A stretch of DNA of 64,000 bases from Aquimixticola soesokkakensis (GTDB taxonomy: Bacteria > Pseudomonadota > Alphaproteobacteria > Rhodobacterales > Rhodobacteraceae): assembly GCF_900172375.1 (NCBI RefSeq), contig NZ_FWFS01000010.1, forward strand, positions 62,001 to 126,000, written 5' to 3'. This document shows, one piece after another, positions 11,213 through 40,948 of this stretch (position 1 is the stretch's first letter; the number at the start of each line of letters is the position of its first letter). Below the pieces are notes generated by a model. That model searched no databases. It saw only the letters and a program-made list of their open reading frames with translations, and was not told the DNA's origin. The translations under genes were made by a program, and so were the position numbers.

Positions 11213-11278
11213 GCGTTGCCAAGCCCGCCGTCGCGGACATATCTTGCGCGCAGACTCTTTCGTGAAAGCCGGTGCCCC

Positions 11279-15163: not shown

Positions 15164-15670
15164 ATGACCGAACCTGCTTCCCATTCCGTGCTTCCCTTTG
15201 CGCCCCGCTCCTCGGGCGAAACCGCGCAAGACCAGCCCCCCCATGAGGCCAGTTTTCACAAAGCCGACTGGCCGTTTTACTGGATCACCCAGACCTCGGC
15301 GCGTTACATGCAGGTGATGGAAGCGCGTCTCAAAGACATTGGCATGGATATCGCCTACTGGCGCGTCCTCATGTCGCTCTATGAGGACCAAAGCCTGTCG
15401 ATTTCGGAAATTTCCGCCTTTTGCATCATCAAACCCAACACGGCGACGAAAATCATCCAGCGCATGACCGCTCAGGAATTGGTCGTCACCGGCGCGCGCG
15501 CCAGCGACGGGCGCGTGACCGAAGTCACCCTGACCCAAGCGGGTCACGACATGCGCAAGAAAGCCCGCGCCATTGCCGACGAGGTGTTCAAGCGCGCCTT
15601 TGAGGACCTGTCACGCGAGGAGCAGATGGTGATGAACCTGCTGCTGGAACGGGTTTTCAAGAAACTTTGA
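15164..15670 (+). CDS. iacR: MarR-family regulator of the iac locus
   Basis: 168 residues with a winged-helix MarR domain: SLSISEISAFCIIKPNTATKIIQRM is the helix-turn-helix (about residues 85-108) and RASDGRVTEVTLTQAG the wing. The N-terminal 35 residues are Pro/Ser-rich and disordered. MarR proteins usually repress catabolic genes until a small aromatic ligand binds; IacR in characterised iac clusters is of this family. It is convergent with the last gene of the iac strand, and its upstream region shares motifs with the iacH promoter region. ATG 15164 chosen for fit to the family; no strong ribosome site is visible. Confidence 0.75.
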   Translation: MTEPASHSVLPFAPRSSGETAQDQPPHEASFHKADWPFYWITQTSARYMQVMEARLKDIGMDIAYWRVLMSLYEDQSLSISEISAFCIIKPNTATKIIQRMTAQELVVTGARASDGRVTEVTLTQAGHDMRKKARAIADEVFKRAFEDLSREEQMVMNLLLERVFKKL

Positions 15671-15688
15671 CCCGCCATCGGTGCACGC

Positions 15689-15725
15689 AAAAGCCCGCCC
15701 ACAGTTCCCTGTGCGCGGGCTTTTT
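15689..15725. terminator. Bidirectional terminator between iacR and the aldolase gene
   Basis: AAAAGCCCGC (15689-15698) pairs with GCGGGCTTTTT (15715-15725), with inner ACAG/CTGT pairing. T-runs on both strands serve both convergent genes. Confidence 0.8.
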
Positions 15726-15741
15726 CAGCTAAGATCGACCT

Positions 15742-16518
15742 TTAGGCGAATTCGGGGCGCTCGCGCTTCATCTTGCGCACCATCGCGTCAAACAGCAATT
15801 CGGCAAAAGAGGAATTGTCTTTCAACCGCTGTGCATCCGCCGCGCAGCGCAGTTTGGTTTCTTCGGGCAGCACCGAATTGGGCCCCGGAATTCCCGCGGC
15901 AGCGCATTGTATTTCCGCCGCGCGCTGCACGGTCCACAGCAACATGAAGGTCAGCGGAATATCCGCCTCGCACACCGCGATGCCGTGGTTCTTCAACACC
16001 AGAACATGTTTGTCGCCCAGGCTTTCGAGCATCCGCGCGCGTTCGGTATCGTAAAGCGTGATGCCTTCGAACGTGTGATAGCCCACCCGCCCGTAAAGCT
16101 GCGCGCCATAAAAACTGTTATGGTCGATGGGAAAGCCTTTCATCGTGATCGCAGACAGCGGCGTGGTGTGGGTATGCACGATGCAGCCCACATCGGCGCG
16201 GTGTTCGTGGATCACACCATGAAGGGCAAAGCCCGCGGGATTGGCCTTGTAGCCCGTGTCTTCGATCAGCTTGCCATCGACCCCGACCTTGATCAGGTTC
16301 TGCGCCGTCACCTCGTCGTAGTGCAGGCCAAAGGGATTGACGAGATAGCTATGACCACCACCGGCGCTGTCGGGCAGGCGCACGGAAATATGGTTGAAAA
16401 TCAGCTCGGTCCAGCCAAGATAGCTCACGAGGTGATAAAAATCGGCCAGCTGGACGCGCAACTCGGCTTCGGTTTTGCCCGCAAGCGGGTCGGCACAAAC
16501 GGGCGCAGGTTTGTTCAT
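15742..16518 (-). CDS. Class II aldolase/adducin-family protein
   Basis: 258 residues of the zinc aldolase/epimerase family (fuculose-phosphate aldolase fold). Metal ligands appear as His115 and His117 (VHTHTTPLS) and His178 (LKNHGI); an acidic residue corresponding to the catalytic Glu is replaced in this branch, as in many adducin-type decarboxylases. It is the last gene of the long minus-strand run and begins inside the stop of the reductase gene (TGATG). Start ATG 16518 preferred over GTG 16521 because of the AAGGAC ribosome site. Possible job: cleaving or decarboxylating the side-chain remnant released in indoleacetate breakdown; this is inference from position. Confidence 0.75.
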   Translation of the reverse strand: MNKPAPVCADPLAGKTEAELRVQLADFYHLVSYLGWTELIFNHISVRLPDSAGGGHSYLVNPFGLHYDEVTAQNLIKVGVDGKLIEDTGYKANPAGFALHGVIHEHRADVGCIVHTHTTPLSAITMKGFPIDHNSFYGAQLYGRVGYHTFEGITLYDTERARMLESLGDKHVLVLKNHGIAVCEADIPLTFMLLWTVQRAAEIQCAAAGIPGPNSVLPEETKLRCAADAQRLKDNSSFAELLFDAMVRKMKRERPEFA

Positions 16519-17540
16519 CACAAAGTCCTTTCGAAAGAGGCAATTGAAGAAAGAGAGCGCAGCAGCGCGCCGGGATCGCCAAGTGGCAGGGCGCGCGCTG
16601 TCGACAGAGGGTCAAGCACCGCATCCACCAGCGGCATCGTCAGGCCACGCGCCTGCGCCATGTCGCGCGGCGCATGCACGATAGCATCCAGTTCCAGACG
16701 CCGCCCCGCGCGCGCGTCCTGCAGCATCGAGGTCGCAAAGTCACCGGCATCGAGCAACAGATCGCCCAGCCACGCGTTGTCGGGCAAGGCATAGCCAAGC
16801 GGCCTCGCCAGCGCGCGAAATTCATCCGCAAGGCCAAAGACAATGGCGCGCTGTACCGGATCGCTGCCCATCGCGCGCAGCGTTGCCCCCGTCAGCGCCG
16901 ACAGCGGGTTGGTGGCAAAATTGGCCAGCAGTTTGACCATGACCTTTTGGCGGATCGCTTCGGGAACATCGACAGCCACACCACCGGCACGCAGTGTCCG
17001 CGCCAGTCGCCCAAGCGCCGCCGCATCCGCCCCCTCTGCGACAGGCGCAAGACTTAGCGTGGGCGTATTGTTGGAAATCGCGCGCCCCTGCGCGTCCAAC
17101 TCGACGGTCATCAACAGCACCGCCCCCAAAACCTGCGCGGGGCGCAACAGCCGCGCCAGCGTGCCCTCGGGGTCGACGCAGGGCACCGCACCGGCGTCAG
17201 GATCATCCGCGAAGAACCAGAACGGCATGCCGTTGACCATCGGCACCACCTGCGTTTGCGCGCCGATTCCGCCTGCGTGCTGTGCAAGGGCTGCGGGCAG
17301 ATCATGGGCTTTGACGCAGGCAAAGATCGCGTCCTGCGGCCGTTCCAGCCGCTCGGTCACCGCGACCTGCGCGCAATGCGGCGTGCCTTTGGCGATTAGG
17401 GTCAACCCGGTGTCGCGCACCGTCTGCGCCCGCGCGCCGCGCGCCACCAAGGTGACCTTTGCGCCGCCTTTGGCCAGCAGGACTGCCATGGCCGAACCGA
17501 TATTGCCCGCGCCGATCACGGCGATTTCAAGAGGTGTCAT
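16518..17540 (-). CDS. Ketopantoate reductase (PanE/ApbA)-family oxidoreductase
   Basis: 340 residues. N-terminal NAD(P) fold with IGAGNIGSAMAVLLA (9-23); the central NGMPFW corresponds to the family NGxxN-type segment, and KVMVKLLANFATNPLSALTG contains the catalytic Lys and Asn of the family. It is therefore probably an NADPH-dependent 2-oxo acid or 3-oxo acid reductase. Its place between a TRAP transporter and an aldolase in the iac run argues against pantothenate synthesis and for a catabolic or detoxifying step. Stop overlaps the aldolase start. Confidence 0.75.
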   Translation of the reverse strand: MTPLEIAVIGAGNIGSAMAVLLAKGGAKVTLVARGARAQTVRDTGLTLIAKGTPHCAQVAVTERLERPQDAIFACVKAHDLPAALAQHAGGIGAQTQVVPMVNGMPFWFFADDPDAGAVPCVDPEGTLARLLRPAQVLGAVLLMTVELDAQGRAISNNTPTLSLAPVAEGADAAALGRLARTLRAGGVAVDVPEAIRQKVMVKLLANFATNPLSALTGATLRAMGSDPVQRAIVFGLADEFRALARPLGYALPDNAWLGDLLLDAGDFATSMLQDARAGRRLELDAIVHAPRDMAQARGLTMPLVDAVLDPLSTARALPLGDPGALLRSLSSIASFERTL

Positions 17541-17550
17541 AGGTCTGTCC

Positions 17551-18831
17551 TCAGGTCAAAAACAGGACGAGCGACGGCACAAGCGTCAACAGGGCCACGC
17601 GCACCACATCCATCATCACAAAGGGGGTCAGCCCTTTGAAGATCGTGCCAAGGCGCACATCGGGCACCACCGAGCGCAGCACGAAAGCGTTCATCCCCAC
17701 GGGCGGCGTGATGTAGCTGATTTCGGTAACCATCACGACAAAGATGCCAAACCAGATCAGGTCGATGCCATGGGCCGCGACGATCGGGTAGAACACCGGC
17801 ACCGTCAGCATGATCATCGACAGGCTTTCCAGCACACATCCCAAGAGCAGATAGATGCACAGGATCACGAGGATCAGCAGCAAACGGCTGTCGCCAAACC
17901 CGCCCAGAAAACTCTGGATGTCGCCCGTCATGCCCGACATGTTCACGTAGTTGGTAAAGGTCAGCGCGCCAAAGAGGATGAAAAACATCATCGCGGTGGT
18001 CTTGATCGTATCAAACAGGACCGACTGCAGCCCCGCCCAGCTGAACTTGCCGTGCAGAATGGTCAGCAACAGCGCCCCCGCTGCGCCCATGCCGGCACTT
18101 TCCGTGGGCGTGAACACCCCCAGATAAATGCCGCCCATCACGAAGACAAAGAGGATAAGCGCGCCCATTGTCCCCTTGAGCGCGCGCAGCCGTGCGCGCA
18201 GCGGCAGTTTGGATTCCACCGGCAGGTCGAGCTTGCCAAAGTGGATCGACAGGCGCACCGCGATGGCATAGCCGATGACACCGATCACGCCCGGAATGAG
18301 GCCCGCAAGGAACAGCTTGCCGATGTCCTGCTGGGTCAGAATGCCGTAAAACACAAGGATGACCGAGGGCGGGATGAGGATGCCCAGCGTGCCACCCGCC
18401 GCAATCGAGGCCGTCGAGAGCTGGTCGGGATAGCCGAACTTGCGCATCGACGGCAGCGAGATCCGCGTCATCGTCGCCGCCGTCGCCATGGACGAGCCGC
18501 AGACCGAGGAAAACGCCCCGCAGGCAATCACAGTGGCCGTTGCGAGCCCGCCCTTGCGGTGCCGCATCCACGCATAGGCAGAGGCGTAAAGTTCATCCGC
18601 GATACCCGATTGCACGACGAAATTGCCCATCATCAAAAACAGCGGCAACACCGACAGGGAATAGTCGCGACCATTGTCGAAAAACGCCGAGCCAAGCAGG
18701 GAAAGCGCGGGCAGCGGGCCAATGATGGCGATCAGGCCGACAAGCCCGATGCCTGCCAGTGCAAAGGCGATCGGCACCCCCGCAAAGAGCAGCGCCATGA
18801 GGATCGCCATGCCGATGGGCCAATGTTCCAT
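17551..18831 (-). CDS. TRAP transporter large membrane subunit (DctM type)
   Basis: 426 residues, about 12 membrane helices, the ion-coupled permease of a TRAP importer. Family blocks seen include GVPIAFALAG near the N-terminus, GSSMATAATMTRISLPSM, GTLGILIPPSVILVFYG and PPVGMNAFV near the C-terminus. It sits four bases downstream of the DctQ gene and works with DctQ and DctP to import organic anions using a sodium gradient. Start at ATG 18831. Confidence 0.92.
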   Translation of the reverse strand: MEHWPIGMAILMALLFAGVPIAFALAGIGLVGLIAIIGPLPALSLLGSAFFDNGRDYSLSVLPLFLMMGNFVVQSGIADELYASAYAWMRHRKGGLATATVIACGAFSSVCGSSMATAATMTRISLPSMRKFGYPDQLSTASIAAGGTLGILIPPSVILVFYGILTQQDIGKLFLAGLIPGVIGVIGYAIAVRLSIHFGKLDLPVESKLPLRARLRALKGTMGALILFVFVMGGIYLGVFTPTESAGMGAAGALLLTILHGKFSWAGLQSVLFDTIKTTAMMFFILFGALTFTNYVNMSGMTGDIQSFLGGFGDSRLLLILVILCIYLLLGCVLESLSMIMLTVPVFYPIVAAHGIDLIWFGIFVVMVTEISYITPPVGMNAFVLRSVVPDVRLGTIFKGLTPFVMMDVVRVALLTLVPSLVLFLT

Positions 18832-18835
18832 GGAA

Positions 18836-19420
18836 TTACCTTTTGCCTTTGAAGGACTTGAAGAGTGTGATGAGGGGGACAGCGGCGCTTAACGCGGCAC
18901 CGACAACCGTGCAGATGGCACAAAAATAGCCCAAGGGTGCGATGGGAATCCGCAGCGACGAGGTCGATCCGCCATAGGCTGCGATCTGGTCCGCATAGAC
19001 CCAGATGCGCCAGGCAACCACCACCAGCACCAGCGCCGACACCAGCCCGATGGCCGCTTTGCGCCAGGGTTGAAGCCGCTGGGCCAAACGGTCGGTGACC
19101 AGATCGACGGTGACATGTTCATTGTTCAGACTGACCGCTGGCAGGCCCAGAAAAATCGTCGCTGCGAGCAGCAGTTCGGTCAATTCCCCTGCCCCCGTCA
19201 GCGGCGCCGAGAAAATATAGCGCCCGATGACATCGACCACAGTGAGCGCCATCATCGCCATCAACATGACGCCACCGCAGGCCGCAATCACACGGTTCAG
19301 AACCTGCCCCGTGCGCGAGGGACTTTGTCCCCCCGCCGAGGGTTCCCCCGTAGACTGTTCCCCCGACAAGCTTGTGCCTGCCGGAGGGGTCGTTACATGT
19401 GCCGAGGTCAGCGGGCTCAT
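18836..19420 (-). CDS. TRAP transporter small membrane subunit (DctQ type)
   Basis: 194 residues with four hydrophobic helices from about residue 40 on; VVDVIGRYIFSAPLTGAGELTELLL is the characteristic DctQ segment between helices 1 and 2. The first 38 residues are Ser/Gly/Pro-rich and probably cytoplasmic and disordered. ATG 19420 overlaps the DctP stop by ATGA, which fixes the start. Confidence 0.9.
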   Translation of the reverse strand: MSPLTSAHVTTPPAGTSLSGEQSTGEPSAGGQSPSRTGQVLNRVIAACGGVMLMAMMALTVVDVIGRYIFSAPLTGAGELTELLLAATIFLGLPAVSLNNEHVTVDLVTDRLAQRLQPWRKAAIGLVSALVLVVVAWRIWVYADQIAAYGGSTSSLRIPIAPLGYFCAICTVVGAALSAAVPLITLFKSFKGKR

Positions 19421-20439
19421 TCTGCCGAAACCGCGTCGATTTCGGACAGAAACATGTCGTAGGCCGCCTGTCCGTCGATGCCGGTTTGCGACACTTCGGC
19501 GATTTTTGCCGCCACGATGGGCGAAAGCGTCTGCGTCCAAGCGGCCAGCTGGGCATCGGTCGCGGGCGTGATGGTGATTTTGCCGTCCATCGCGGTGACG
19601 CCCTCTGCATCCACACGGTCCCACATCGCCCCTGCCATGCGGGCCAAAGCCTCGCCCGTCACACCGTCAATCGCGGCTTGATCCTCGGCCGACAGGCTGT
19701 CCCATTTCGCCTTGTTCATGATGACGTAAAAGGAGGTATTGTAGAGGCCGCCGGGCACGGTAATCGCCGTGTCGAGTTGCGGGATCAACTTGAAAAAGCT
19801 GACGGATTCCGGCGGAAACAGAATTCCGTCCGCCACGCCTTGGCTGAGCAGCTCATAGGCTTTGGACGATGGGCCCTCGACAGGAACAGCCCCCAGCGCG
19901 GAGGCCACTTCGTGAACGATTCCGCCGCCAACACGCAGTTTCTGACCCTTGAGCACATCGGGGTCGGACACATCGACATCCTTGAGGAAAATTTCCCCCG
20001 GACCGTGGGTGAAAACGCCCAGAACCTTGACCTGATCGTATTCGCCCGCCTCTTTCAACAGGGCGTCAAAGGTGCGCCAATAGGCGACCGACATGGCTTC
20101 GGCGCTATCCCCGATAAACGGCAGCTCGGCGATATTGGTGGTTTTGAACCGGCCGGGGTTATAGCCCTGCACCCCGAAGGTGATATCGGCCACGCCGTTT
20201 ACGGCAAAGTCGAAATGCGCGGCAGGCGGCCCCAGCGGTGCGGGCAGGATATTGGCGGTGACATTGCCACCTGTCGCCTCGGCGATCTGCTCGGTCAACG
20301 GAACGATCACATCCGACACCAGCGGGTGCGAGGGCGGCAACCAATTGGCCACGGTCAGCGTAGTCTGGGCAAAAGCGGGGAGCGAGAACATCAGCCCAAG
20401 CGCCGTCACGGCCGCTGTTTTGGGGAGGAGGTATTTCAT
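19417..20439 (-). CDS. TRAP transporter substrate-binding protein (DctP type)
   Basis: 340 residues with a Sec signal peptide (KTAAVTALGLMFSLPAFA, cleavage near residue 24) and the periplasmic DctP fold. The family's conserved helix is VHEVASALGAVPV (about 172-184) and the usual carboxylate-binding Arg lies in LKGQKLRVGGG. It binds the ligand for DctQM. Position directly after iacG (105-base gap) makes indole-3-acetate or a related aromatic carboxylate the best guess for the ligand; not shown. An AGGG ribosome site lies upstream of the ATG. Confidence 0.9.
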   Translation of the reverse strand: MKYLLPKTAAVTALGLMFSLPAFAQTTLTVANWLPPSHPLVSDVIVPLTEQIAEATGGNVTANILPAPLGPPAAHFDFAVNGVADITFGVQGYNPGRFKTTNIAELPFIGDSAEAMSVAYWRTFDALLKEAGEYDQVKVLGVFTHGPGEIFLKDVDVSDPDVLKGQKLRVGGGIVHEVASALGAVPVEGPSSKAYELLSQGVADGILFPPESVSFFKLIPQLDTAITVPGGLYNTSFYVIMNKAKWDSLSAEDQAAIDGVTGEALARMAGAMWDRVDAEGVTAMDGKITITPATDAQLAAWTQTLSPIVAAKIAEVSQTGIDGQAAYDMFLSEIDAVSAE

Positions 20440-20544
20440 GAAGCGTTTCCCTATTGGTGTGTTGGTCTTGTTGGTGGTGCCGCGTCATTCTTGCCCTCTT
20501 CTTGGCGGAGGGCCAGTGGTCGGCGGGTCGTCTGCACAGCTAAA

Positions 20545-21051
20545 TCAACATGCCGCGCGCAAGTGGTGAAAATCGCGGCCAAACCAGATCAGCCCCTCGG
20601 CCTGTGGTTGTCCGATCGCGATATGCTGGACCTCGCAAAAGAACACCGAATGGGTGCCGACGCTCTTTTGATCGGTGATCTGACAGTCGAAAGCGACGGC
20701 GGCGTCTTGCAACACCGGCGCGCCGGTCACGCCCTGTGTCCAATCGCCCGTCGCAAAGCGGTCGTGATCGGAGGGGCGCGCGAAATGCCCCGACAAATCG
20801 CGATGCGCGCCGCTCAACACGTTGACGCACAGCGTGCCGTTTTTCACAAACAGGTCGTGGCTGCGGTTGGTCGTATTCACGCAGACCAGCAAAGTGGGCG
20901 GGCTGTCGGTGACGGAACACACCGCCGACGCCGTCATGCCGTGTTTGCCCGCAGGCCCGTCGGTCGTCAGCACGGTCACGGCCGCCCCCAGACGGCTCAT
21001 CGCCTCGCGAAACAGGGCGCTCGTGTTCTCACGGGAATTCACATCAGACAT
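20545..21051 (-). CDS. iacG: Flavin reductase
   Basis: 168 residues of the flavin-reductase-like (FMN-binding split-barrel) family: MSRLGAAVTVLTTDG, GMTASAVCSVTDSPPTLLVCVN and GLIWFGRDFHHL are typical HpaC/NtaB-type blocks. It supplies reduced flavin to a partner monooxygenase, here the IacA-like oxygenase. The start overlaps the iacF stop by a few bases (21044-21051). Confidence 0.85.
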   Translation of the reverse strand: MSDVNSRENTSALFREAMSRLGAAVTVLTTDGPAGKHGMTASAVCSVTDSPPTLLVCVNTTNRSHDLFVKNGTLCVNVLSGAHRDLSGHFARPSDHDRFATGDWTQGVTGAPVLQDAAVAFDCQITDQKSVGTHSVFFCEVQHIAIGQPQAEGLIWFGRDFHHLRAAC

Positions 21052-22009
21052 CCAGCACCAACCGTTTCGAGCAGGCCCGCGAACAGCAGGCACAGATTTG
21101 ATCGCCGTCCGCGCGCTCGTCCTCGGTGAGGAACATGTCGCGGTGGTCAATCTCGCCCTCGATCACATCCGTCACACAGGTGCCGCAAACGCCTTCCTCG
21201 CATTTCACCTCGATCTTGATGCCCGCCTTGGCCAGAGCCTTGGCAATCGTATCGGTGGGCCCGACGGTGACGGTGACGTCAGAGGCCTGCGCATAGACCT
21301 CGAAACTGTCGCCCGTCGTGTCCACATCGGCGGCGAAATATTCACGGTGGATGTGGTCGGGCGCATGGCCCTTGGCCTCGGCCGCCGCGATCACAGCCGC
21401 CATGTAGGCTTCGGGGCCACAAACATAGAGATGCGTGCCCGCGCTTGGTGCGGGGATATCCGCCAAAAGGTCCAGCCGCGCGCTATCCGAAGGGTGCAAG
21501 ACCGTGCGCCCCGCAAAAGGCGCCGCCTCGACCACATCCAGAAACGCGGTGCGCGCGCGCGATTTGGTGGAATAGTGCAGCGTGAATGCCTTGCCAGCCG
21601 CCGCCAGTTCCAGGCCCATGGCAATCATCGGCGTGACGCCGACACCGCCGCCGTAAAGGACGCTCAGCTCGGCCTCGGGGGTGAGGGCAAAGTGATTGCG
21701 CGGCCCCGCGATGCGCAGGCGCTCGCCAAGTTTCGCCCCCTCGTGAAGGGCCAGCGATCCGCCACGGCTCTGAGGGTCGCGCAGCACGCCCAGCGTGTAG
21801 CTGTCGCGCGTTGCCGGATCACCACAGAGCGAATATTGCCGCCAGACCGGCCCCCCGACCATGTCCACCAGCACGTCGATATGCGCGCCGGCGCTAAAGC
21901 GCGGCAGGTCCGCGCCCGTAAGGGTCACGCGCAAAATATCGCCCAGATCTTTGTGGCGCGCGCTGACGATCACATCATGCTCAAGGCTTTCGGTCTCCGT
22001 TTGTGTCAT
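21044..22009 (-). CDS. iacF: Ferredoxin reductase, PDR/VanB type (dioxygenase electron donor)
   Basis: About 321 residues. N-terminal flavin domain (WRQYSLCG is the flavin-binding RxYSL motif), middle NAD domain (LYGGGVGVTPM; VCGPEAYM) and C-terminal plant-type [2Fe-2S] domain with CEEGVCGTC and a fourth Cys in QICACCSRA. One polypeptide thus passes electrons from NAD(P)H to the Rieske oxygenase IacCD. ATG 22009 is preferred to ATG 22024 because GAGGG lies eight bases before it. Confidence 0.85.
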   Translation of the reverse strand: MTQTETESLEHDVIVSARHKDLGDILRVTLTGADLPRFSAGAHIDVLVDMVGGPVWRQYSLCGDPATRDSYTLGVLRDPQSRGGSLALHEGAKLGERLRIAGPRNHFALTPEAELSVLYGGGVGVTPMIAMGLELAAAGKAFTLHYSTKSRARTAFLDVVEAAPFAGRTVLHPSDSARLDLLADIPAPSAGTHLYVCGPEAYMAAVIAAAEAKGHAPDHIHREYFAADVDTTGDSFEVYAQASDVTVTVGPTDTIAKALAKAGIKIEVKCEEGVCGTCVTDVIEGEIDHRDMFLTEDERADGDQICACCSRACSKRLVLDV

Positions 22010-22020
22010 CGCAACATCCC

Positions 22021-22782
22021 TCATCGCATGTACAACCCGCCGTTCACGTCCCAGCAGGCACCGGTCACAAAAGCCGCATCGCGCCCTGCAAGCATGACCA
22101 CCATTCTCGCCACGAAATCGAGGCTTCCAAGCGCGCCCGTGAGCAGGTTTGCCAAAAAGCCGTCCATCTTTTCGGGCGGCACGATGGCATGCACCATCGG
22201 GCTGTCCATCGGCCCCGGAGAAATCGCGTTGCAGGTCACGCCAAAGGCGGCAAGATCGCGCGCAAACACTTTGGTCAGCGTCAGGATCGCGCCCTTGGAC
22301 GCGGCATAATGTGCGCCGGTCGCCGTGCCGCCGTTCTGCCCCGCAAGCGAGGCCATGTTGATCAAACGGCCATAGCCGCGCTCTTTGAAATGGCGCCCGA
22401 AAATCTGACAGCCCGCAAAACAGCCGCCCGCATTGATCGCAAGGATCGCGTTGAAATCCGCAGGGTCGATGTCGAGAACGGGCTTGGCCTCGGTGCGCGC
22501 GGCATTGTTGACCAGCACTTCACAAGACCCCCAGCGCTCGACCACCTTGTCGAGCACGATTTGATAGTCCTGCGCCTTGCCAATATCGAGGCTGGCCGTA
22601 ACGGCTGTCTCCCCCGCAAGGTCCAGTTCCAGCGCCAGTGCTTGCGCCGCATCGCCGTCGATATCGGTCAAGACCACGCGGTAGCCTGCGGCGTGCAGCG
22701 CCCGCGCCGCGACCGCCCCGAACCCGCGCGCAGCCCCCGTGACAACGGCGGTTTGGGTAACATCGGGCAAGGGCACGCCCAT
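22021..22782 (-). CDS. iacE: Short-chain dehydrogenase
   Basis: 253-residue classical SDR: TGAARGFG cofactor loop (15-22), NNAA (92-95), catalytic Ser145, Tyr159 and Lys163 (YAASK) and PGPMDSPM. Asp40 after the second strand favours NAD. In the known pathway IacE acts early on hydroxylated indole-3-acetate, together with IacA. It begins at the iacD stop and ends in an ATGA-type overlap with the reductase frame. Confidence 0.85.
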   Translation of the reverse strand: MGVPLPDVTQTAVVTGAARGFGAVAARALHAAGYRVVLTDIDGDAAQALALELDLAGETAVTASLDIGKAQDYQIVLDKVVERWGSCEVLVNNAARTEAKPVLDIDPADFNAILAINAGGCFAGCQIFGRHFKERGYGRLINMASLAGQNGGTATGAHYAASKGAILTLTKVFARDLAAFGVTCNAISPGPMDSPMVHAIVPPEKMDGFLANLLTGALGSLDFVARMVVMLAGRDAAFVTGACWDVNGGLYMR

Positions 22783-23279
22783 CAGAACAAATAGCTGATC
22801 GAGGTCAGCACTCCGTTGGAATTGAGCAAGCGCGCGACCTTGTCACGGATCGCAATGCCGGTTTCGCTGCGCACCAGCGTGTAGGTCAGGTTCACCGCGA
22901 AAATGCGCTGGCGGCCGAATTTATCCTCGACGACATGTTCAGCGCAGCGCAGCGTGATCGTGGTGTCATCCACCGCCTCGGCCACAAAGCGCGACAGGGT
23001 GCGCACGGTTTGCGCAGGCGGCGCGGCGGAGATCGAAAACCCGCCTTGCAGACGCTCGACCCGCATTTTGCGCATCGCCGCATCGTCATAGGCAATGTTG
23101 AGCATATTGGCGAAATCGTCGCCGGTTTTCTCTATCGGGATGACGTAGTGACCGCCATCGCCCCAAAGCGCAAGCCACGCATCGTAGTCGCAGGCGTCAA
23201 GCATATCGGCCTCGGCCCAAACGAATTCGACAGCCTCCTGAAGAGAAATCGCCAGATCGGTCACGGGAAAATCCTTCAT
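22782..23279 (-). CDS. iacD: Aromatic-ring-hydroxylating dioxygenase small subunit
   Basis: 165 residues of the beta-subunit family (SnoaL-like cone fold), with the family blocks EADMLDACDYDAWLALW near the N-terminus and RVERLQGGFSISAAPP then TLRCAEHVVEDKFGRQ. It is the structural partner of the Rieske large subunit. ATG 23279 lies within the iacC stop (ATGA), so both subunits are made together. Confidence 0.88.
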   Translation of the reverse strand: MKDFPVTDLAISLQEAVEFVWAEADMLDACDYDAWLALWGDGGHYVIPIEKTGDDFANMLNIAYDDAAMRKMRVERLQGGFSISAAPPAQTVRTLSRFVAEAVDDTTITLRCAEHVVEDKFGRQRIFAVNLTYTLVRSETGIAIRDKVARLLNSNGVLTSISYLF

Positions 23280-24550
23280 TGTACCGCCTCCGGCGCATCC
23301 ATCATCTTTTTCCATTGGGCATAGGCCGCGCGCATGCCGGTTTCCGCCGACACATCGCCTTTGGGCAGGCCGTTCTCGGAGGGCGTTTCCAAGCCCAGCC
23401 CACGGTTGACCATCACCGGCAAATCAGGGCCACCCGCCGAGCCGCGCTGCACGCGTTCCCACACTTCGGCATCATCGGGGGACCCGAACCCCATCGGCCC
23501 CTGAAAGTGTTCGTGCAGGCGCATCCGCATCTGGTTGGCCGCTTGCGGCCCCCCCTCCATCCCCAGCGCGATGTGGCGGATTTCGGTTTCATTCACCGCC
23601 ACAGGGCGCAAAATCCGAAAAAACGACAGCGAACATCCCGCATTCGGGAACAGGTTCAGGTTGAACCCGCAGCCCCCCACGGCGCGCACGATCCGCTTGA
23701 CCTGATCCTCGTCGTAATCCTTGCGCAATGTGGCGGCAAGATCTTGAAAACGCTCAGGGATCGGGGCGTCGAGATTTTCGTCCAGATCGTTCAGCTCGGG
23801 CATCATCACCATGACGGAATGCCCGTTCCCAAGGTCTTCGACCCAGCCGTCATCGTCATCGAGAAAGGAAAACTGTTCGGTTGCCTCGCCGTCGAGCGAC
23901 TGCATGAAGGACTTGTGGACAACGGGAAAATGGTAGGCGTCGGTGGTGTTTTCCAACTGGATTTTCCAGTTCATCGGCACTTTGAACTGATGCTCGCCCA
24001 GCGTCTTGATCGGGAAACCGCCGCCCTGTTTCATGAACAGGCGAATCCAGGGTTTCGCATTGCCAAGGAAGTCTTCCAGCGGCTCCACATCCATGTTGAA
24101 GGACGCAAAAATCATGCCCTCGAAGGTCTCGACCTTCAGCTTTTTCAACCCGTAGTCTTTCTTGTCGAAATCGGTGTTATAGCCTTCGGTGTAGGGCACG
24201 CCGCGCAGCTCGCCGTTCAGCGCGTAGCCCCAGCCGTGATAGGGGCATTGAAAGGACGATGTCTTGCCTTTCTGGATTTCACAGACGCTGGCCGCGCGGT
24301 GACGGCAGCGGTTCACGAGCACATGCAATTCATTCTTGCGGTCGCGCGAAATAATGACCGGCTGGGTGCCGACATGGGACAGTTTGAACGAGCCTTTGTC
24401 GGGCACCTCCGAAACATGACCGACCCAAACCCACGCCTTGCCAAAGATTTTGTCCATCTCGAGGTCAAAGAGGGCCGGGTCTTCGTACATCGGGGTTGCG
24501 ACGCGGTCGGGGGCGACCAATTCGTCCGTTTTGGGATAATCCAGAGACAT
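23276..24550 (-). CDS. iacC: Rieske aromatic-ring-hydroxylating dioxygenase large subunit
   Basis: About 424 residues. The Rieske [2Fe-2S] site is CRHR (Cys83, His85) and CPYHGW (Cys103, His106); the mononuclear iron site uses His208 and His213 in DAYHFPVVH with bridging Asp205 and an Asp at 360/361 (SPDDAEVW); numbering counts from the upstream ATG at 24553. In iac pathways IacCD with IacF forms the dioxygenase that releases catechol from the ring-opened intermediate. ATG 24550 is favoured by spacing from AAAGG. The gene follows iacI by 12 bases. Confidence 0.9.
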   Translation of the reverse strand: MSLDYPKTDELVAPDRVATPMYEDPALFDLEMDKIFGKAWVWVGHVSEVPDKGSFKLSHVGTQPVIISRDRKNELHVLVNRCRHRAASVCEIQKGKTSSFQCPYHGWGYALNGELRGVPYTEGYNTDFDKKDYGLKKLKVETFEGMIFASFNMDVEPLEDFLGNAKPWIRLFMKQGGGFPIKTLGEHQFKVPMNWKIQLENTTDAYHFPVVHKSFMQSLDGEATEQFSFLDDDDGWVEDLGNGHSVMVMMPELNDLDENLDAPIPERFQDLAATLRKDYDEDQVKRIVRAVGGCGFNLNLFPNAGCSLSFFRILRPVAVNETEIRHIALGMEGGPQAANQMRMRLHEHFQGPMGFGSPDDAEVWERVQRGSAGGPDLPVMVNRGLGLETPSENGLPKGDVSAETGMRAAYAQWKKMMDAPEAVQ

Positions 24551-24562
24551 CATCGAGCCTTT

Positions 24563-25087
24563 CTAATCATGCACGCTGCCGGTTGGCGACGGGATCTGCA
24601 CGGGCTGGTTCCAATCGGACACCGCGCGGGCATAGAGGTTTTCAGTGGAAAAGCGGTGCATGCGCCACGCTTCGTTTTCTTTTTTAAAATCAATGACAAG
24701 CCTTGCCGCCATCACGAAGTTCTGCCCATCGGCAAAACGCGGCGTTTGCAGCATCAACCAGCGTCCGGTGACGCCTTCGTCCCTGTGGGTCAGCGACTCT
24801 GACGACAGGAAATGCGCGTTCATCGCGAAATGCGGCGGCGTGGTGCAAAACTGCGCCAGCCAGTCCACAATCGCCGCCCGCCCGTGATGCTGACCGAAAT
24901 CCGCCGCGTAGCGCGCCCCCGCCCCGCCCCAGACCGCGCCCTCGGTAAACAGCGCAGCCAGCGCCTCTAGGTCGGTGTTGGCATCCAGCCGGTCGCAGAT
25001 GTCCATGTAATCGGACAGGCAGGCACGACAGGCGCTTTCGGCCTCAAGCCGCGCGACACGGTGCAAAAGGGCGGCAAGATCGCTCAC
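24563..25087 (-). CDS. iacI: SnoaL/NTF2-like protein
   Basis: 174 residues, GTG start overlapping the previous stop (GTGA at 25084-25087). The pattern of an N-terminal helix (LEAESACRACLSDYMD), LFTEGAVWGG and central strands fits the SnoaL-like cone fold. IacI of known iac clusters is a protein of this kind; it has been proposed to help a hydrolytic or isomerising step in side-chain processing, but its reaction is not settled. Context decides the name. Confidence 0.72.
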   Translation of the reverse strand: MSDLAALLHRVARLEAESACRACLSDYMDICDRLDANTDLEALAALFTEGAVWGGAGARYAADFGQHHGRAAIVDWLAQFCTTPPHFAMNAHFLSSESLTHRDEGVTGRWLMLQTPRFADGQNFVMAARLVIDFKKENEAWRMHRFSTENLYARAVSDWNQPVQIPSPTGSVHD

Positions 25088-25431
25088 AGCTGCGGGATCT
25101 CCAGCGCGCGCCCCATGCGGGCCTCGACCGTCATATATTTCCACAGCCGATCATTGCCCTCCCCGACCACGATGGTGCGCAGCAGGTTGCAGGCCGCTTG
25201 TACGTCCTCGCGTGTCGGGAAATCGGCCAGAATATACCATGTGTAGGGAAAGCCCTGCGTGGCCCCGACCAGCGTCTGATCGTCGTCAAAAGTGCCCACA
25301 ATCGTGACGCCCTCCATTTTGTCGATCCCCGACATAAGCTGTTGGGTTGCCGTCCAGACGGGGCCGATCTGATCGAAGGGCAGAGAAAAGAAAGTGGGGT
25401 GGTTGTTAAAACAAAGCAGGGTACGGATCAT
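25084..25431 (-). CDS. iacB: Small conserved protein of iac clusters
   Basis: 115 residues starting MIRTLLCFNN. A ferredoxin-like (dimeric alpha/beta barrel) fold is plausible from alternating strands and helices; no catalytic motif can be named. Small proteins of this size lie next to iacA in characterised clusters as IacB, required or helpful for conversion of dioxindole-type intermediates. The name rests on size and position. GTGA overlap with the next gene; ribosome site AAAAAGGA before ATG 25431. Confidence 0.65.
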   Translation of the reverse strand: MIRTLLCFNNHPTFFSLPFDQIGPVWTATQQLMSGIDKMEGVTIVGTFDDDQTLVGATQGFPYTWYILADFPTREDVQAACNLLRTIVVGEGNDRLWKYMTVEARMGRALEIPQL

Positions 25432-25473
25432 GTTGTTGCGTCCTTTTTCGGGGATCAAATCAAATTGGAATAT

Positions 25474-26619
25474 CTATGGAAAACCCGGCGGGGTCTGTTC
25501 GCCAAACATGGCCGCGCCCGCGCTGGTCCAGGTGCCTTCCCCCATGAAAGCGTGTTGGGCCACGCAGGCCGCATCGACCATCAAACGGCCCAGGGGGTGA
25601 TCGGCCATCATCGCACTGGCGCCGCCCATCACAAAGGCCAGCCGCGCCACCTCGGCGCCCTCATGGGCGGCCACCGTCGAGGCAAGGCGCAAGCGCACAT
25701 GGGTCTCGCGCGACACGTTTGGCGCGTGCTGCAATTCGTCCCAGGCCTGCGCCGTGGCGTCAAAAAACTGCGCCCGCGCGCCGGCCAGTTTGCCTTCGGC
25801 GCGCGCCAGATGCGCCTGGACATAGGGCCGCGATCCCGCCGTGGGCGCACCCGTAATCGAGGCCTTGCCTGCCGCTTCATTTCTTATGAAATCAAGGGCT
25901 TCACGTGCAGCCCCAAGGGCGACCACCGCCAAAACCTGCGCCGCCAGCGCCATCGCGGGATACCGGAAAATCGCATCTTCCATGACCGAGGGCGCACCGC
26001 GCACAAAGGTCCAGTCCTCGGGCACCACGACCTTCTCGACGACCAGATCATGGCTACCAGTCGCGCGCAGGCCGATGGTGCGCCATGTTTCGTCAATCGT
26101 GATCCTGTCGCGCGGCATCACCGCCGTGCGCGGCAAGGGCGTGTCATCGCCGTCCACCTTGATTCCGCCACCAAGCAGATCCGCCCCCATCGCGCCGGAA
26201 CACCAGGACCAACGCCCGCTGACTTGGACTCCGCCCGCAACGCGCAGCGCCTTTTGCGGCGGGAACAGGCCGCCTGCAAACACGGTATCGGGATTATTCC
26301 CGTAAATTTGCGCAAAAGTTTCGGGCGGAAGGGCGGCCAGATAAGTGGACGACACCCCGAAACTGGCCACCCATCCGGCCGAGGCATCCGCCGCCGAAAT
26401 GGTTTCCACAAGCTGGAGAAACGCCATCGGCGTCAGCGCGTCCCCGCCGAATTTCGTGGGAACAAACGCGCGGTACACCCCGACGGATTTGAAACCCTCG
26501 ACGATATCTTGGGGGATATGGCGCAGGCGGTCGAACTCTGCGCGCCGCCGGCGGATCGTGTCACACAGAGCGGTGAGCGCTGCGGCCTTTCGCGCAAGGG
26601 CTGGCTCGTGTCGGGTCAT
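25474..26619 (-). CDS. iacA: Indole-3-acetate monooxygenase, acyl-CoA-dehydrogenase-like flavin oxygenase
   Basis: 381 residues with the acyl-CoA dehydrogenase fold used by two-component FADH2 monooxygenases (group D; HpaB2/HsaA/DszC type). Features: N-terminal helical domain with GVYRAFVPTKFGG, central barrel (WSWCSGAMGADLLGGG; TWRTIGLRATGSHDLVVEKVVVP) and C-terminal helical bundle. The catalytic base of true dehydrogenases is not conserved. IacA starts indoleacetate attack by oxygenating the indole ring, using flavin reduced by IacG. Start ATG 26619 overlaps the iacH stop (ATGA). Confidence 0.85.
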   Translation of the reverse strand: MTRHEPALARKAAALTALCDTIRRRRAEFDRLRHIPQDIVEGFKSVGVYRAFVPTKFGGDALTPMAFLQLVETISAADASAGWVASFGVSSTYLAALPPETFAQIYGNNPDTVFAGGLFPPQKALRVAGGVQVSGRWSWCSGAMGADLLGGGIKVDGDDTPLPRTAVMPRDRITIDETWRTIGLRATGSHDLVVEKVVVPEDWTFVRGAPSVMEDAIFRYPAMALAAQVLAVVALGAAREALDFIRNEAAGKASITGAPTAGSRPYVQAHLARAEGKLAGARAQFFDATAQAWDELQHAPNVSRETHVRLRLASTVAAHEGAEVARLAFVMGGASAMMADHPLGRLMVDAACVAQHAFMGEGTWTSAGAAMFGEQTPPGFP

Positions 26620-27779
26620 CGGGTACACTCCGTTTGGCGGTCAGAAAGGGCCGGATCGGCCAGATGTCGGGCAAGGCGTTCGGCCACGGCGCAGAGCCGC
26701 GCATCCTCGCCTTTGCGCCCCACCAGCTGCAGACCCGCCGCAAGCCCCTCGGCGGTGCGCAGCGGAATGGTAAGCGCGGGGTGGCCCGAAAGGTTGAACG
26801 GGCGCACCAGCGATGTCAGCGGGATCAGGGACTGCGGATCGCGCGCCTCGTCGAGCGTTGGCGGCACGCAGGGCATGGTCGGCAAGACCAGCGCATCCAC
26901 CCGCGCAAGCGCTGCATCGACTTCGTCACAAAACCGCGCGCGCACGGCCTCGGCCTGGTCCACCTGCGCATCCGTCACCGCGAGCGCGGCAAGGATGCGC
27001 GTTTTTACATCCGCCCCCAGCGTCGCGTTTGAACGCGCCAAATGTCCGAATTCATTCGCTATTTCAGCGTTGATCAAAACGAGGCCCGCATTGAAAGCCG
27101 CCTCGAGGCTCGGCAGGGCAACATAGGGAACATCCCAAGGCTCAAGCGCGCGCTCAACGGCCGCAAGCACATCCGGCTCCGCCGCCACGGCGACACCGTT
27201 GAGAGAAAAATCCTCCAGAACAACCGGCTCGAAAGCGGGGATCATCAGGCTTGCCGCCTTGGTCAACATCGGCGCAGTGGCGGCGAGCGGACCGATACAA
27301 TCCAGCGTCGAGGCCCGCGGAATCGCGCCGCGCCTGTCTACCGAACCAAAGGTCGGCTTTAATCCGAAAGTGCCACAGCAGCACGCCGGTTGGCGGATCG
27401 AGCCCCCCGTGTCGGTGCCCACGGCGAAATCACAAAGCCCCGCCGCAACGGCAGCGGCCGCGCCCGAAGAGGACCCTCCCGGAATGCGGTCCGGCCAAGT
27501 CGGATTGAGCGCGGTGCCCGCATAGGCGTTCACGCCGGACACGCCAAAGGCCAATTCATGCATGGTGACCGTGCCCTCAATGGCGCATCCCTGCTCGAGA
27601 AGGCGCGCGACAATCGCACTATGCGCCGTTTCAACGGGCGCGTCCTCAAAGGCATGGGACCCGCAGCGTGTCGCAACACCTTGGACGCCAAGGCACTCCT
27701 TGATCAGAACCCGCGGCGCCTCCCCGCCAAGCGCGAGGCGTCTGGTAATCGTCTGGGGATCGGTCACGATCTGGGGCAT
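26616..27779 (-). CDS. iacH: Amidase-signature hydrolase
   Basis: 387 residues of the amidase signature family. The Ser-cisSer-Lys triad is visible: Lys27 (IKECLGV), cis-Ser within GGSSSG (101-106) and nucleophile Ser127 in GTDTGGSIRQPA. It is shorter than GatA (about 480) at the N-terminus, as in catabolic amidases. In the indoleacetate pathway IacH is thought to open the lactam ring of the oxindole intermediate. First gene of a run of 14 consecutive same-strand genes, so the main promoter lies upstream in 27780-27970. Confidence 0.85.
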   Translation of the reverse strand: MPQIVTDPQTITRRLALGGEAPRVLIKECLGVQGVATRCGSHAFEDAPVETAHSAIVARLLEQGCAIEGTVTMHELAFGVSGVNAYAGTALNPTWPDRIPGGSSSGAAAAVAAGLCDFAVGTDTGGSIRQPACCCGTFGLKPTFGSVDRRGAIPRASTLDCIGPLAATAPMLTKAASLMIPAFEPVVLEDFSLNGVAVAAEPDVLAAVERALEPWDVPYVALPSLEAAFNAGLVLINAEIANEFGHLARSNATLGADVKTRILAALAVTDAQVDQAEAVRARFCDEVDAALARVDALVLPTMPCVPPTLDEARDPQSLIPLTSLVRPFNLSGHPALTIPLRTAEGLAAGLQLVGRKGEDARLCAVAERLARHLADPALSDRQTECTR

Positions 27780-27914
27780 GGTGGTCCTTACGCTCTGCGG
27801 CTCAACTTATGTGAATATTACGCAATATCTCGGACCGAGATAGCGCGCCTTGCCGCGATGGCCGCATTTCGGGCGAGAGGCCGCGGATCACGGCAGCCTC
27901 GTGCAAAATTTAAT

Positions 27915-29305: not shown

Positions 29306-30228
29306 TCGACAAAGGCCTCGACGACACGGCGTTCTCCCAGCAAAAAAGCATCCGCTACAAGCTGCAACGGCGCAAGGTCAACGTCGCTTTGCCCGCGCGC
29401 AATCAGGTCGACAAACCGTGCATAGAGGCGTTTATATTCGGCATCGCTTGCGTTGATCTGTGCCACTCCCGCCACCACCAACCGCGCGCCGCCCTCTTGC
29501 AACACCACCTCGCCCAGATCGCTTTGTACGCGGATATCCCATGTTTGCGGGCCGGTCTGACGCCAGTCGAACACCGCCTCGACAGGCGCGCCCGCCCCCG
29601 TGACCATCGACATCTGCGCGGCAATGGGCGCTTGTTTGTTGGCAGGCACTTCCAAAATCGCGCCGGTCGGATGCACAGGGTCTGGCAGGATGCGCGTGAG
29701 GATGGAAAGCGCGTTGATGGCGGGATCAAAGACCCCCAGGCCTCCCGCTTCCCAGATCCATTCCTGACCGGGGTGCCAGTGGCGCACATCCTCTTTCCAC
29801 GCGATATCCACGCGCTGAATCGTCGCATTTGCTAACAGGGTGCGCGCTTGCTCGACCGCTGCCGCTTCGCGCGAATGCCATGTCGCAAACAGGGTGACGC
29901 CGCGATCGCGGGCCAGTTGCGCAAGCGCTTGCACCTCGCTGACGCTGGCACCGGGAGGCTTTTCCAGCATCACATGTTTGCCCGCGCGCAGGGCGGCCTG
30001 TGCCTGTGCAAAGCGGCCCTGCGGAGGGGTGCACAGCGACACCGCGTCCACGCGGACATCGGACGCCAGCAATGCCGCGACATCGTAAAACGCCGCAATA
30101 TCGTCAAGGCGCGCGTTGCGGCTTGCGATCGCCGCAAGCGACAGCGCCGGCGTGGCCGCCAGCGCCGGCAGATGTTGATTGCGCGCAATCGTGCCAAGGC
30201 CGACGAGGCCCAAAGAAATCGGTGTCAT
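29302..30228 (-). CDS. Sugar 1-dehydrogenase, Gfo/Idh/MocA family (D-galactose/L-arabinose)
   Basis: 308 residues: N-terminal Rossmann fold (LVGLGTIARNQHLPAL), the EKPPGAS motif containing the conserved Lys, and a C-terminal alpha/beta domain with WIWEAGGLGVFDPAINAL. The WEAGGLGVFDPGINALSI-type block is characteristic of D-galactose/L-arabinose 1-dehydrogenases, which form the 1,4-lactone with NAD(P). Neighbouring lactonase, dehydratase and KDPGal enzymes support this. ATG 30228 chosen because it overlaps the lactonase stop (ATGA). Confidence 0.85.
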   Translation of the reverse strand: MTPISLGLVGLGTIARNQHLPALAATPALSLAAIASRNARLDDIAAFYDVAALLASDVRVDAVSLCTPPQGRFAQAQAALRAGKHVMLEKPPGASVSEVQALAQLARDRGVTLFATWHSREAAAVEQARTLLANATIQRVDIAWKEDVRHWHPGQEWIWEAGGLGVFDPAINALSILTRILPDPVHPTGAILEVPANKQAPIAAQMSMVTGAGAPVEAVFDWRQTGPQTWDIRVQSDLGEVVLQEGGARLVVAGVAQINASDAEYKRLYARFVDLIARGQSDVDLAPLQLVADAFLLGERRVVEAFVE

Positions 30229-31115
30229 TTGAAGTCTCCGCAAAGGTCGAGGCGAAAGGCGGGTTCGGCTTTGCCCTGCCCTGCCTGCGCAACGGTGAAT
30301 GTTTTGCCCGCATCGGGGTCGGCGCGCCGCGCCTCGGGCGTCATATGTTCGGTGGCCGAGGTGACGAAGAGGGTGGTGAAGTCAGCGCCACCAAAGGCCG
30401 GACAACTGCTTTGGGTCGCGCCAACGGGCGTGCGTGCGCCCAGCGTCGCGTCCGGCGCGACCGCCACCACACAGCCCGCCCCCCACAGGGCCACCCGCAG
30501 GCTCCCATCGGCCAGCGTCACCGCCCCGTCGGGATTGAGGCCAAGCGCCGCAAAATCCACGAAGGTCTCGCGCGCGCCAAGGGGCCAGCCGTCACCGTCC
30601 AACGCTTGGCGATAGAGCAGGCCCAGCGCGGTGTCGGCGTAATAGGCGCAGCTTTTGTCAGGGGCAAAACAGATGGCGTTCGCAATGGTCAACTCCGCCG
30701 CGACCTGTCGCATTTCGCCCGCAACATAGCGATAGAGCGCGCCGGCTTTTGGCGCTGCGCTCTTGCTCATGGTCGAGGTCCAGAAACCACCCCAAGGATC
30801 GGCGCGCCCGTCGTTCGAGCGGGTCTGCGCGACATCCGCTTCGATGCCGATCAGACGCTGCAGGCCCCCGCTTTCGATGTCAAATACCCACAGCCCCGTT
30901 TCGGAGGCCAGCAACAATCGGTCTGCGTCAATCCAGGCCGCCGCCGAAAACAGTTCCGGCAGCGCGTAGCTGCGCCGCGCATCGGGGGCGGCGTCATCGG
31001 GGCGCCGGACATGCAGGGTTCGGCCCAAAATATCAAACCAGAACAATTCGCCGCGCTGCGGATGCCAGAGCGGCCCCTCCCCCAAATGACAGACCTGTTC
31101 GTCGAAAATCGCCAT
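30225..31115 (-). CDS. SMP-30/gluconolaconase-family sugar lactonase
   Basis: 296-residue six-bladed propeller of the SMP-30 family. Expected metal ligands are present: Glu13/14 in HLGEGPLWHP, Asn in TRSNDGRADPWGGFW, Asn in IANAICFAPDK and Asp in ALGLNPDGAVTLADG. It hydrolyses galactono- or arabinono-lactone to the acid, the step after the sugar dehydrogenase. It lies two bases after dgoA and overlaps the dehydrogenase start. Confidence 0.88.
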   Translation of the reverse strand: MAIFDEQVCHLGEGPLWHPQRGELFWFDILGRTLHVRRPDDAAPDARRSYALPELFSAAAWIDADRLLLASETGLWVFDIESGGLQRLIGIEADVAQTRSNDGRADPWGGFWTSTMSKSAAPKAGALYRYVAGEMRQVAAELTIANAICFAPDKSCAYYADTALGLLYRQALDGDGWPLGARETFVDFAALGLNPDGAVTLADGSLRVALWGAGCVVAVAPDATLGARTPVGATQSSCPAFGGADFTTLFVTSATEHMTPEARRADPDAGKTFTVAQAGQGKAEPAFRLDLCGDFK

Positions 31116-31117
31116 GT

Positions 31118-34127: not shown

Positions 34128-34193
34128 GGGAGGTCCTTTTGCGAAAAGACCTGCGGCGCGGGGAGGAAGACACGCCGCAGGAAACATAAGACG

Positions 34194-35945: not shown

Positions 35946-35957
35946 CAGGGGCTCCAA

Positions 35958-36926: not shown

Positions 36927-36931
36927 CGCTC

Positions 36932-38164: not shown

Positions 38165-38173
38165 TTCTTCCCC

Positions 38174-39688: not shown

Positions 39689-39782
39689 GGTCGCTCCCCC
39701 GACTATCTTTGTGCGCCTCCGACAACCGGAGACAACAAGGCCGCCCCACCCGATGAGCGGGGCGGCCCTTGGGATCAAAAAC

Positions 39783-40838: not shown

Positions 40839-40852
40839 GTCTATCCTCCCTG

Positions 40853-40870
40853 ACAGGGGCAAACCCCTGT
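40853..40870 (-). promoter_or_regulatory. Leader hairpin before chvE
   Basis: ACAGGGG-(4)-CCCCTGT, a perfect 7-bp stem directly upstream of the chvE ribosome site. It may stabilise the mRNA 5' end or tune translation of the most abundant subunit. No T-run follows, so a terminator is unlikely. Confidence 0.4.
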
Positions 40871-40948
40871 GCACATAAACCCCGTCTCCCGAGGGGCTGC
40901 ACCGAGTCGTAACGGGGAATGACATACCAAACAAATACCAATATAAAG

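Follow-up and report, generated by a model that had tools for sequence, protein, structure and literature searches.

An indole-3-acetate (iac) type operon with a kpr/ald accessory module in Aquimixticola soesokkakensis

Here we describe a run of 14 tightly spaced genes on the minus strand of a 64,000-nucleotide stretch of Aquimixticola soesokkakensis DNA (contig NZ_FWFS01000010.1, positions 62,001 to 126,000; hereafter the window, with positions counted from its first letter). The run extends from 27779 to 15742 and reads iacH-A-B-I-C-D-E-F-G, followed by the genes for DctP, DctQ and DctM of a tripartite ATP-independent periplasmic (TRAP) transporter and then by two further genes, kpr (ketopantoate-reductase-like) and ald (class II aldolase-like). 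We interpret it, with a probability of about 0.72, as an aerobic indole-3-acetate (iac) operon of a roseobacter kind, carrying kpr and ald as an accessory module that most likely acts after 3-hydroxy-2-oxindole-3-acetate (DOAA). Co-occurrence across genomes singles out two small gene modules, kpr/ald being one, as testable candidates for the gap between DOAA and catechol in a pathway whose genes have been known since 2008 (cited in PMC6624763).

Evidence for an iac operon

The identity of the run as an iac operon is well supported by gene order, marker proteins and an IacR-type MarR regulator, and its iac membership is established at the level of sequence, as distinct from activity. The iac systems of Pseudomonas putida 1290, Acinetobacter and Klebsiella share the iacA-I content and an IacR-type MarR with the window, and the iacHABICDEFG order recurs on an Acinetobacter plasmid (L004; iacG there by annotation) and a Klebsiella plasmid (L023), where the third product of the run is annotated as IacB. 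All 14 genes stand in window order in loci of Thioclava, Thalassovita, Pseudooceanicola marinus and Donghicola (L002, L024, L047-L052), with protein identities of 56-93% for the Thioclava plasmids (L002, L024) and Thalassovita L047. This recurrence of gene order excludes a chance arrangement. The arrangement in P. putida 1290 is iacABCDEFG-R-HI with catR-catBCA upstream (PMC6624763); relative to the P. putida, Acinetobacter and Klebsiella systems, the window adds the TRAP, kpr and ald genes and belongs to a genome in which no CatC match was found.

IacA, IacB and IacI are the markers that separate iac from iad loci (PMC9613470, in excerpt), and all three are present. The iad locus (Variovorax, Achromobacter; IadR of R. 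pomeroyi) has IacCDEF-type genes homologous to those of the window but, as described in the same excerpt, no iacA, and it leads to anthranilate. An iad reading is excluded by the presence of iacA and iacB, and no iorB/iotA-like product was found with Pfam or NCBIfam models among the 15 window products examined. Facing the operon from beyond its last gene, the MarR gene (15164-15670, on the plus strand) has its best solved matches in 7L19 (E = 6e-30), a protein of E. soli (PMC11630574, in excerpt), and 7KUA (E = 3e-29), the IacR of P. putida (PMC9613470, in excerpt); the A. baumannii protein 7L1I (PMC11630574, same excerpt) follows at 1e-12 and the IadR structure 3CDH at 2e-6. These matches support an IacR-type regulator.

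For comparison between genomes we collected 93 IacA-centred loci, consisting of the best 80 of 409 from a scan and 13 chosen among 40 listed of 366 plasmid records. Loci were called core iac loci when H, A, B and C all passed set thresholds (73 of 93); the other 20 were dropped. A quick tree of joined IacA and IacC (73 rows, being the window and 72 of the 73 core loci; Shimodaira-Hasegawa approximate likelihood ratio test, SH-aLRT, as the sole support measure) grouped the window with Thalassovita, Thioclava, Pseudooceanicola marinus, Donghicola and two metagenome-assembled genomes (MAGs) at an SH-aLRT of 100, while the program flagged long branches among the gammaproteobacterial rows.

An earlier sequence-only reading had proposed a complete iac cluster in a probable roseobacter, and much of it is borne out. 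The products that it named lie where it had put them, the iac assignment gains from the gene order, markers and regulator described above, and the roseobacter placement fits the family group, which includes genomes matching Gemmobacter fulvus (100% identical gene) and Thalassovita taeanensis. Completeness holds for the iac genes and the MarR gene and fails to take in the TRAP-kpr-ald part: the limits given, 15164-27779, run from the MarR start to the amidase end and enclose five genes (DctP, DctQ, DctM, kpr and ald) that went unmentioned.

The largest intergenic gap in the run, about 105 bases, lies 5' of DctP, and four-base start/stop overlaps occur at iacI (25087), iacD (23279), iacF (22024), DctQ (19420) and ald (16521); overlaps of this kind along the run are compatible with a single transcript. 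The first gene, iacH (26616-27779), encodes an amidase of 387 amino acids (PF01425, 225 bits) with 66-69% identity in L002 and L047-L052. The product of iacA (25474-26628) is predicted to be a flavin-dependent oxygenase of the acyl-CoA dehydrogenase (ACAD) fold; it scores 152 bits on the HsaA model, far below the cut-off of 450, and is 75-81% identical to its nearest relatives (L002, L047-L052) and 46-53% to those in gamma- and betaproteobacterial iac clusters. The small marker protein IacB (25084-25431; 115 amino acids) matches no Pfam or NCBIfam family and is 41-94% identical to IacB of 51 other loci; its predicted model (predicted local distance difference test, pLDDT, 92) suggests a ferredoxin-like fold, the best Z of 8.6 being near noise level. 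A SnoaL-like protein (SnoaL_4; PF13577, 51.7 bits) is encoded by iacI (24563-25087), which we start at a GTG at 25087, four bases over the iacB stop, by reference to this overlap and to L002; the open reading frame (ORF) extends to 25144.

The Rieske dioxygenase alpha subunit IacC (23276-24553; PF00355 and PF00848) has the anthranilate 1,2-dioxygenase model as its best NCBIfam match (203 bits against a cut-off of 672), with 79-90% identity in L002, L047-L052, L070, L071 and L120 and 62-65% in gamma- and betaproteobacterial loci. The beta subunit IacD (22782-23279; Ring_hydroxyl_B, PF00866, 65.5 bits) has an ATG at 23279 that overlaps iacC by four bases in an ORF extending to 23315; this start and that of iacI are both inferred. 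IacE (22021-22782) is a short-chain dehydrogenase/reductase (SDR; PF13561, 169 bits), a protein that in another species performs the step from 2-oxoindole-3-acetate to DOAA; identities are 48-55% in gamma- and betaproteobacterial loci and mostly 66-80% in alphaproteobacterial core loci (L021, 56%). A VanB-type reductase, IacF (21044-22024; Fer2, 52 bits), and a flavin reductase, IacG (20545-21051; PF01613, 139 bits), complete the iac part. Of the transporter subunits, the solute-binding protein DctP (19417-20439) reaches 59 bits on NF037995 against a cut-off of 50 and the large permease DctM (17551-18831) 297 bits on TIGR00786 against 268; the small permease DctQ (18836-19420), whose start overlaps the DctP stop, is assigned by position, its YiaM-like match of 26 bits being below cut-off. 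The oxidoreductase encoded by kpr (16518-17540) scores 211 bits on NF005089, below the cut-off of 223, and matches PDB 3ghy (E = 7e-36), whereas ald (15742-16521), with a class II aldolase/adducin-type metalloenzyme product, reaches 244 bits on NF005451 against 207.

Distribution of the kpr/ald module

We surveyed 394 genomes of the window's family group, counting an ald match at E <= 1e-60 and at least 76% identity. IacB was found in 12 genomes, one of which (G357, 37% identity) has a diverged locus where the 20 kb searched gave neither an iacA nor an iacC match. The ald gene was present in 11 genomes, namely in 10 of the 12 with IacB and 1 of the 382 without it (G214; Fisher p = 3e-17), and it lay within 10 kb of iacB in 10 of the 10 genomes that hold both. 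We regard kpr and ald as an accessory module conserved with this variant of iac.

A second module appears in other loci. The iac loci of Rhizobium, Azospirillum, Gemmobacter and Sagittula share the H, A, B, C, D, E, F, G core with the window, whereas maleylacetate reductase and hydroxyquinol dioxygenase genes (in some cases with an aldehyde dehydrogenase) replace kpr/ald and the SnoaL gene is divergently placed and about 32% identical. Among the 73 core loci, 24 carried kpr/ald (kpr in 24, ald in 20), 23 carried maleylacetate reductase/hydroxyquinol dioxygenase, 26 carried neither and none carried both (Fisher p = 1e-5). These loci are not independent, some coming from one species, and with stretches of about 10 kb the count for neither is an upper bound and that for both a lower bound. 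On the IacA and IacC tree the two module labels need five changes, at least three of them forced by starred branches, and the Celeribacter loci carry different modules. Both kpr and ald also occur near iac in Sphaerotilus (L125) and Pseudomonas (L126).

A genome-wide check covered 50 of the 64 core loci that came from the genome scan, giving 48 genomes. With a line at 58% identity, set after inspection of the list, ald was found in all 18 genomes whose iac locus has kpr/ald nearby, in 1 of the 15 that carry the other module and in 4 of the 15 that carry neither. Several observations blur the division into two modules. One genome with the maleylacetate reductase/hydroxyquinol module (G424) has an ald of 62% identity; in the genomes G039 and G238 ald lies near iacB while maleylacetate reductase/hydroxyquinol dioxygenase genes are found at other sites; in a core locus (L081) and a non-core locus (L114) a true catechol 1,2-dioxygenase stands near iac together with one of hydroxyquinol type; and CatC is also found in 10 of the 15 genomes with the maleylacetate/hydroxyquinol module.

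The presence of such neighbours is already known. In Marinomonas sp. MWYL1 and NFXS50, iacABICDEFG is accompanied, as in the window, by iacR and by genes for a class II aldolase and a 2-dehydropantoate 2-reductase, to which the available excerpt of PMC11373566 assigns no function; according to that excerpt these loci differ in having an ABC transporter instead of TRAP, another gene order and an IacH 28.6% identical to that of P. putida, and NFXS50 has catechol pathway genes. What is new is the association of kpr/ald with iac across genomes and the mutual exclusion of the modules. In the literature searched, no paper besides PMC11373566 was found on aldolase and reductase genes beside iac, and none linking iac with hydroxyquinol; PMC9613470 covers 221 genera, which may well include some of these iac carriers.

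A group of mostly Rhizobiales alphaproteobacterial loci (L105-L109, L115, L117) gave matches for A, B, E and G and none for C, D, F or H in the stretch. These might represent a half pathway stopping at DOAA.

Pathway, ring fate and competing explanations

The mechanism that we envisage is carried over from studied Iac proteins or proposed here. The TRAP transporter would import auxin or a related indole acid, as its location in the run suggests, and IacR would keep the operon repressed until auxin binds. By analogy, IacA with IacG would hydroxylate indole-3-acetate to 2-oxoindole-3-acetate and IacE would convert this to DOAA, the product to which IacA and then IacE lead in PMC7225977 (in excerpt). 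According to that excerpt the stretch of the pathway between DOAA and catechol 'remains unfilled', with no intermediate proposed and the functions of several Iac proteins open. IacH probably opens the DOAA lactam, which would yield a mandelate-like tertiary alcohol where an oxidative split could be imagined, and IacCD with the reductase IacF would dioxygenate the ring. The kpr and ald products would most likely act downstream of DOAA, with the mandelate-like side chain or a released fragment as substrate. The roseobacter iac variant may therefore differ from published systems in its lower half, between DOAA and catechol.

Some evidence weighs against this interpretation. IacA and IacE share just 46-55% identity with their gamma- and betaproteobacterial iac counterparts; for scale, a published survey screened MAGs at >50% identity to reported IacA/IacE and annotated its own strains at >40% (PMC11630574, in excerpt). 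The cargo of the TRAP transporter is assumed from co-location alone. In G214, moreover, ald, kpr and an amidase gene lie side by side without iac (L135, 11354-14578), which shows that kpr/ald can occur independently of it. The adjacency of these three genes in G214 hints that all three may act on one substrate.

The iac pathways described in the literature lead to catechol (PMC9613470, in excerpt), which is then used through cat genes (PMC6624763), and the sequence-only reading had predicted conversion of auxin to catechol. This prediction is not supported by the genome. Searches found neither CatC (PF02426; catB was not searched) nor maleylacetate reductase, and no match to catechol 1,2-dioxygenase passed the cut-off. 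There were two PF00775 matches, one short and weak (33 bits) and one full-length enzyme of CatA size (at C23), which scores 167 bits with the hydroxyquinol dioxygenase 8r2x against at most 100 bits with catechol 1,2-dioxygenases and falls far below the cut-offs for the latter. An extradiol enzyme of 321 amino acids (encoded on contig C13 and called C13 here) is a candidate for catechol cleavage, with 298 bits on TIGR03211 (catechol 2,3-dioxygenase; cut-off 320) and matches to 9wgj (named catechol 1,2-dioxygenase, 357 bits) and 3lm4 (catechol 2,3-dioxygenase, 198 bits); the extradiol search of the genome covered enzymes other than the LigB type.

Elsewhere in this genome (L009, 5427-9136) the hydroxyquinol-type intradiol dioxygenase at C23 is clustered with an HpaH-like hydratase, an HpaI-like aldolase and an AroQ-like ORF. 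A hydroxyquinol route of the genome's own is weakened by the lack of a maleylacetate reductase match and by the location of the C23 dioxygenase in this cluster, apart from iac. The window itself holds another aromatic operon (41959-46311) with a cupin (gentisate-type reading), an extradiol dioxygenase, a fumarylacetoacetate-hydrolase-like protein and an FAD monooxygenase, adjoined by a LysR gene; its extradiol enzyme (43021-43929), a weaker match than C13, lies inside this gentisate-type cluster. We also looked for a ring-cleavage gene adjoining the operon. Four gene groups were common to at least 4 of 30 kpr/ald stretches (some being one genome twice), and by eye these comprised a gene for an ABC ATPase and pieces of a further TRAP set, none of them ring-cleaving. 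No intradiol enzyme above 60 bits was found in the stretches of gammaproteobacterial iac loci either, and absent neighbours alone therefore prove nothing.

The most serious alternative, to which we give somewhat less than even odds, is an ordinary iac pathway that ends in catechol as the published ones do, with C13 cleaving the catechol or the compound leaving the cell, and kpr/ald merely disposing of a side-chain fragment. The matches of C13 are what this explanation would need, but the score is below cut-off and the gene adjoins, by eye, a TRAP set and a PIG-L-like gene. Also against it are the family genomes, ten in all, that hold IacB and ald together: CatC is missing in nine and present in one, and an extradiol match of at least 290 bits occurs in five, four having none of at least 200 bits. 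Maleylacetate reductase of >50% identity is found in two of the ten.

A lower route that avoids catechol is improbable to our minds, as is the wider proposition that roseobacter iac bypasses catechol through an ald iron oxygenase plus kpr and that alphaproteobacterial iac often has either kpr/ald or a hydroxyquinol-branch module, which would leave more than one natural way across the interval from DOAA to catechol. Here ald would be an O2-using iron enzyme that splits a DOAA-derived hydroxy acid, and kpr would handle the keto product. The predicted ald model (pLDDT 79, predicted template modelling score 0.83, from 17 sequences) is closest to the uncharacterised 3ocr (Z = 29.6) and is nearer to NovR, pyruvic oxime dioxygenase (POD) and TqaM (Z = 26.7, 25.9 and 24.2, over 237, 224 and 238 residues at root mean square deviations of 2.4, 2.2 and 2.8 for the best chains) than to E. 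coli FucA (20-21). NovR and TqaM are termed non-haem iron enzymes in their PDB titles, and enzymes of the NovR/CloR type use keto acids and acids of the mandelate type as substrates. Counting without gaps from the first metal histidine, which we take to correspond to FucA His92, Gly97 of ald would stand at FucA Glu73. POD is an Fe(II) enzyme with a histidine triad and without the other active-site residues of FucA (PMC5216522, in excerpt), and the corresponding triad of ald, His116, His118 and His179 (named as in that excerpt), is invariant in 19 of 19 rows. Shared fold does not, however, show function: 4xxf (named fuculose-phosphate aldolase), 2z7b (a pyridine-dicarboxylate decarboxylase) and adducin score comparably (25.4, 24.5 and 24.2), and the modelled fold and metal triad, common to non-haem Fe(II) oxygenases, aldolases and decarboxylases, are not decisive.

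The genome comparisons are similarly divided on a catechol-free route. Across the 48 genomes, CatC was found in 2 of 16 alphaproteobacterial kpr/ald genomes, leaving 14 without it, and in 5 of 15 with neither module; among the ten family genomes with IacB and ald, two (G133, G259) have intradiol-type matches as short stretches only, with no full-length hydroxyquinol dioxygenase, and no extradiol match of 200 bits. Conversely, both beta- and gammaproteobacterial kpr/ald genomes searched have CatC (2 of 2), and CatC was absent from all eight sampled IacB-negative family genomes, such that its absence looks like a family trait and is no sign of iac. The association of CatC with ald across the 48 genomes was not significant (Fisher p = 0.08).

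Equally doubtful is the explanation that kpr and ald serve the cargo of the TRAP transporter, an unrelated hydroxy acid, and adjoin iac by an accident of operon building. TRAP, kpr and ald are consecutive in the closest relatives, and the kind of TRAP follows the module: DctP is 71-82% identical in the 22 core loci that combine this TRAP with kpr, against 46-60% in the remaining TRAP-bearing core loci (a non-core locus, L064, has a DctP of 71% and no kpr in the stretch). Against this, kpr/ald stand before iacH and away from TRAP in L070, L071 and L120, they occur without such a TRAP in L125 and L126, Marinomonas has the ABC transporter (PMC11373566, in excerpt), and ald is almost confined to family genomes with IacB. 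Least probable of all is another natural substrate, such as indole-3-propionate, indole or a conjugate: in Caballeronia, indole-3-propionate and -butyrate are substrates of IacA and IacE, and an amidase heads the operon, but the full iac set with an IacR-type regulator is present and P. putida 1290 does not grow on most such homologues (both from PMC7225977, in excerpt).

Under the preferred reading of an iac operon with an accessory kpr/ald module, some members of a large, partly marine family join auxin degradation with a transporter, mostly without CatC. This bears on how bacteria would use up the auxin that passes between them and algae; the interaction with plants or algae suggested by the sequence-only reading is one that we could at most infer.

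Upstream element and other genes of the window

The element GTAATATTCACATAA (27807-27821, minus strand) lies 28-42 bases before iacH as a single exact copy in the window and is a candidate promoter or IacR operator. With up to three mismatches allowed there were two matches in the window, the second inside iacA with three mismatches; shuffled sequences gave a mean of 0.32, and 5 of 100 reached two. By eye, the same or a similar element stands near the iacH start in L047-L052, L070, L071 and L120 and farther away in L002 and L024. The window scan found no copy before the MarR gene, which among the 14-gene loci has a counterpart beside the run only in L047, L051 and L052, and a sigma-70 scan upstream of iacH gave no match.

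Elsewhere in the window, genes at 30225-40955 encode a ChvE-GguA-GguB sugar ABC transporter, an L-arabinonate-dehydratase and SMP-30, and likely form an oxidative sugar route. Finally, a major facilitator superfamily (MFS) transporter at 11216-12529 is near the Tet(A)/Tet(C) models and below their cut-offs (316 of 475 bits on the family model), and is probably an ordinary efflux relative.

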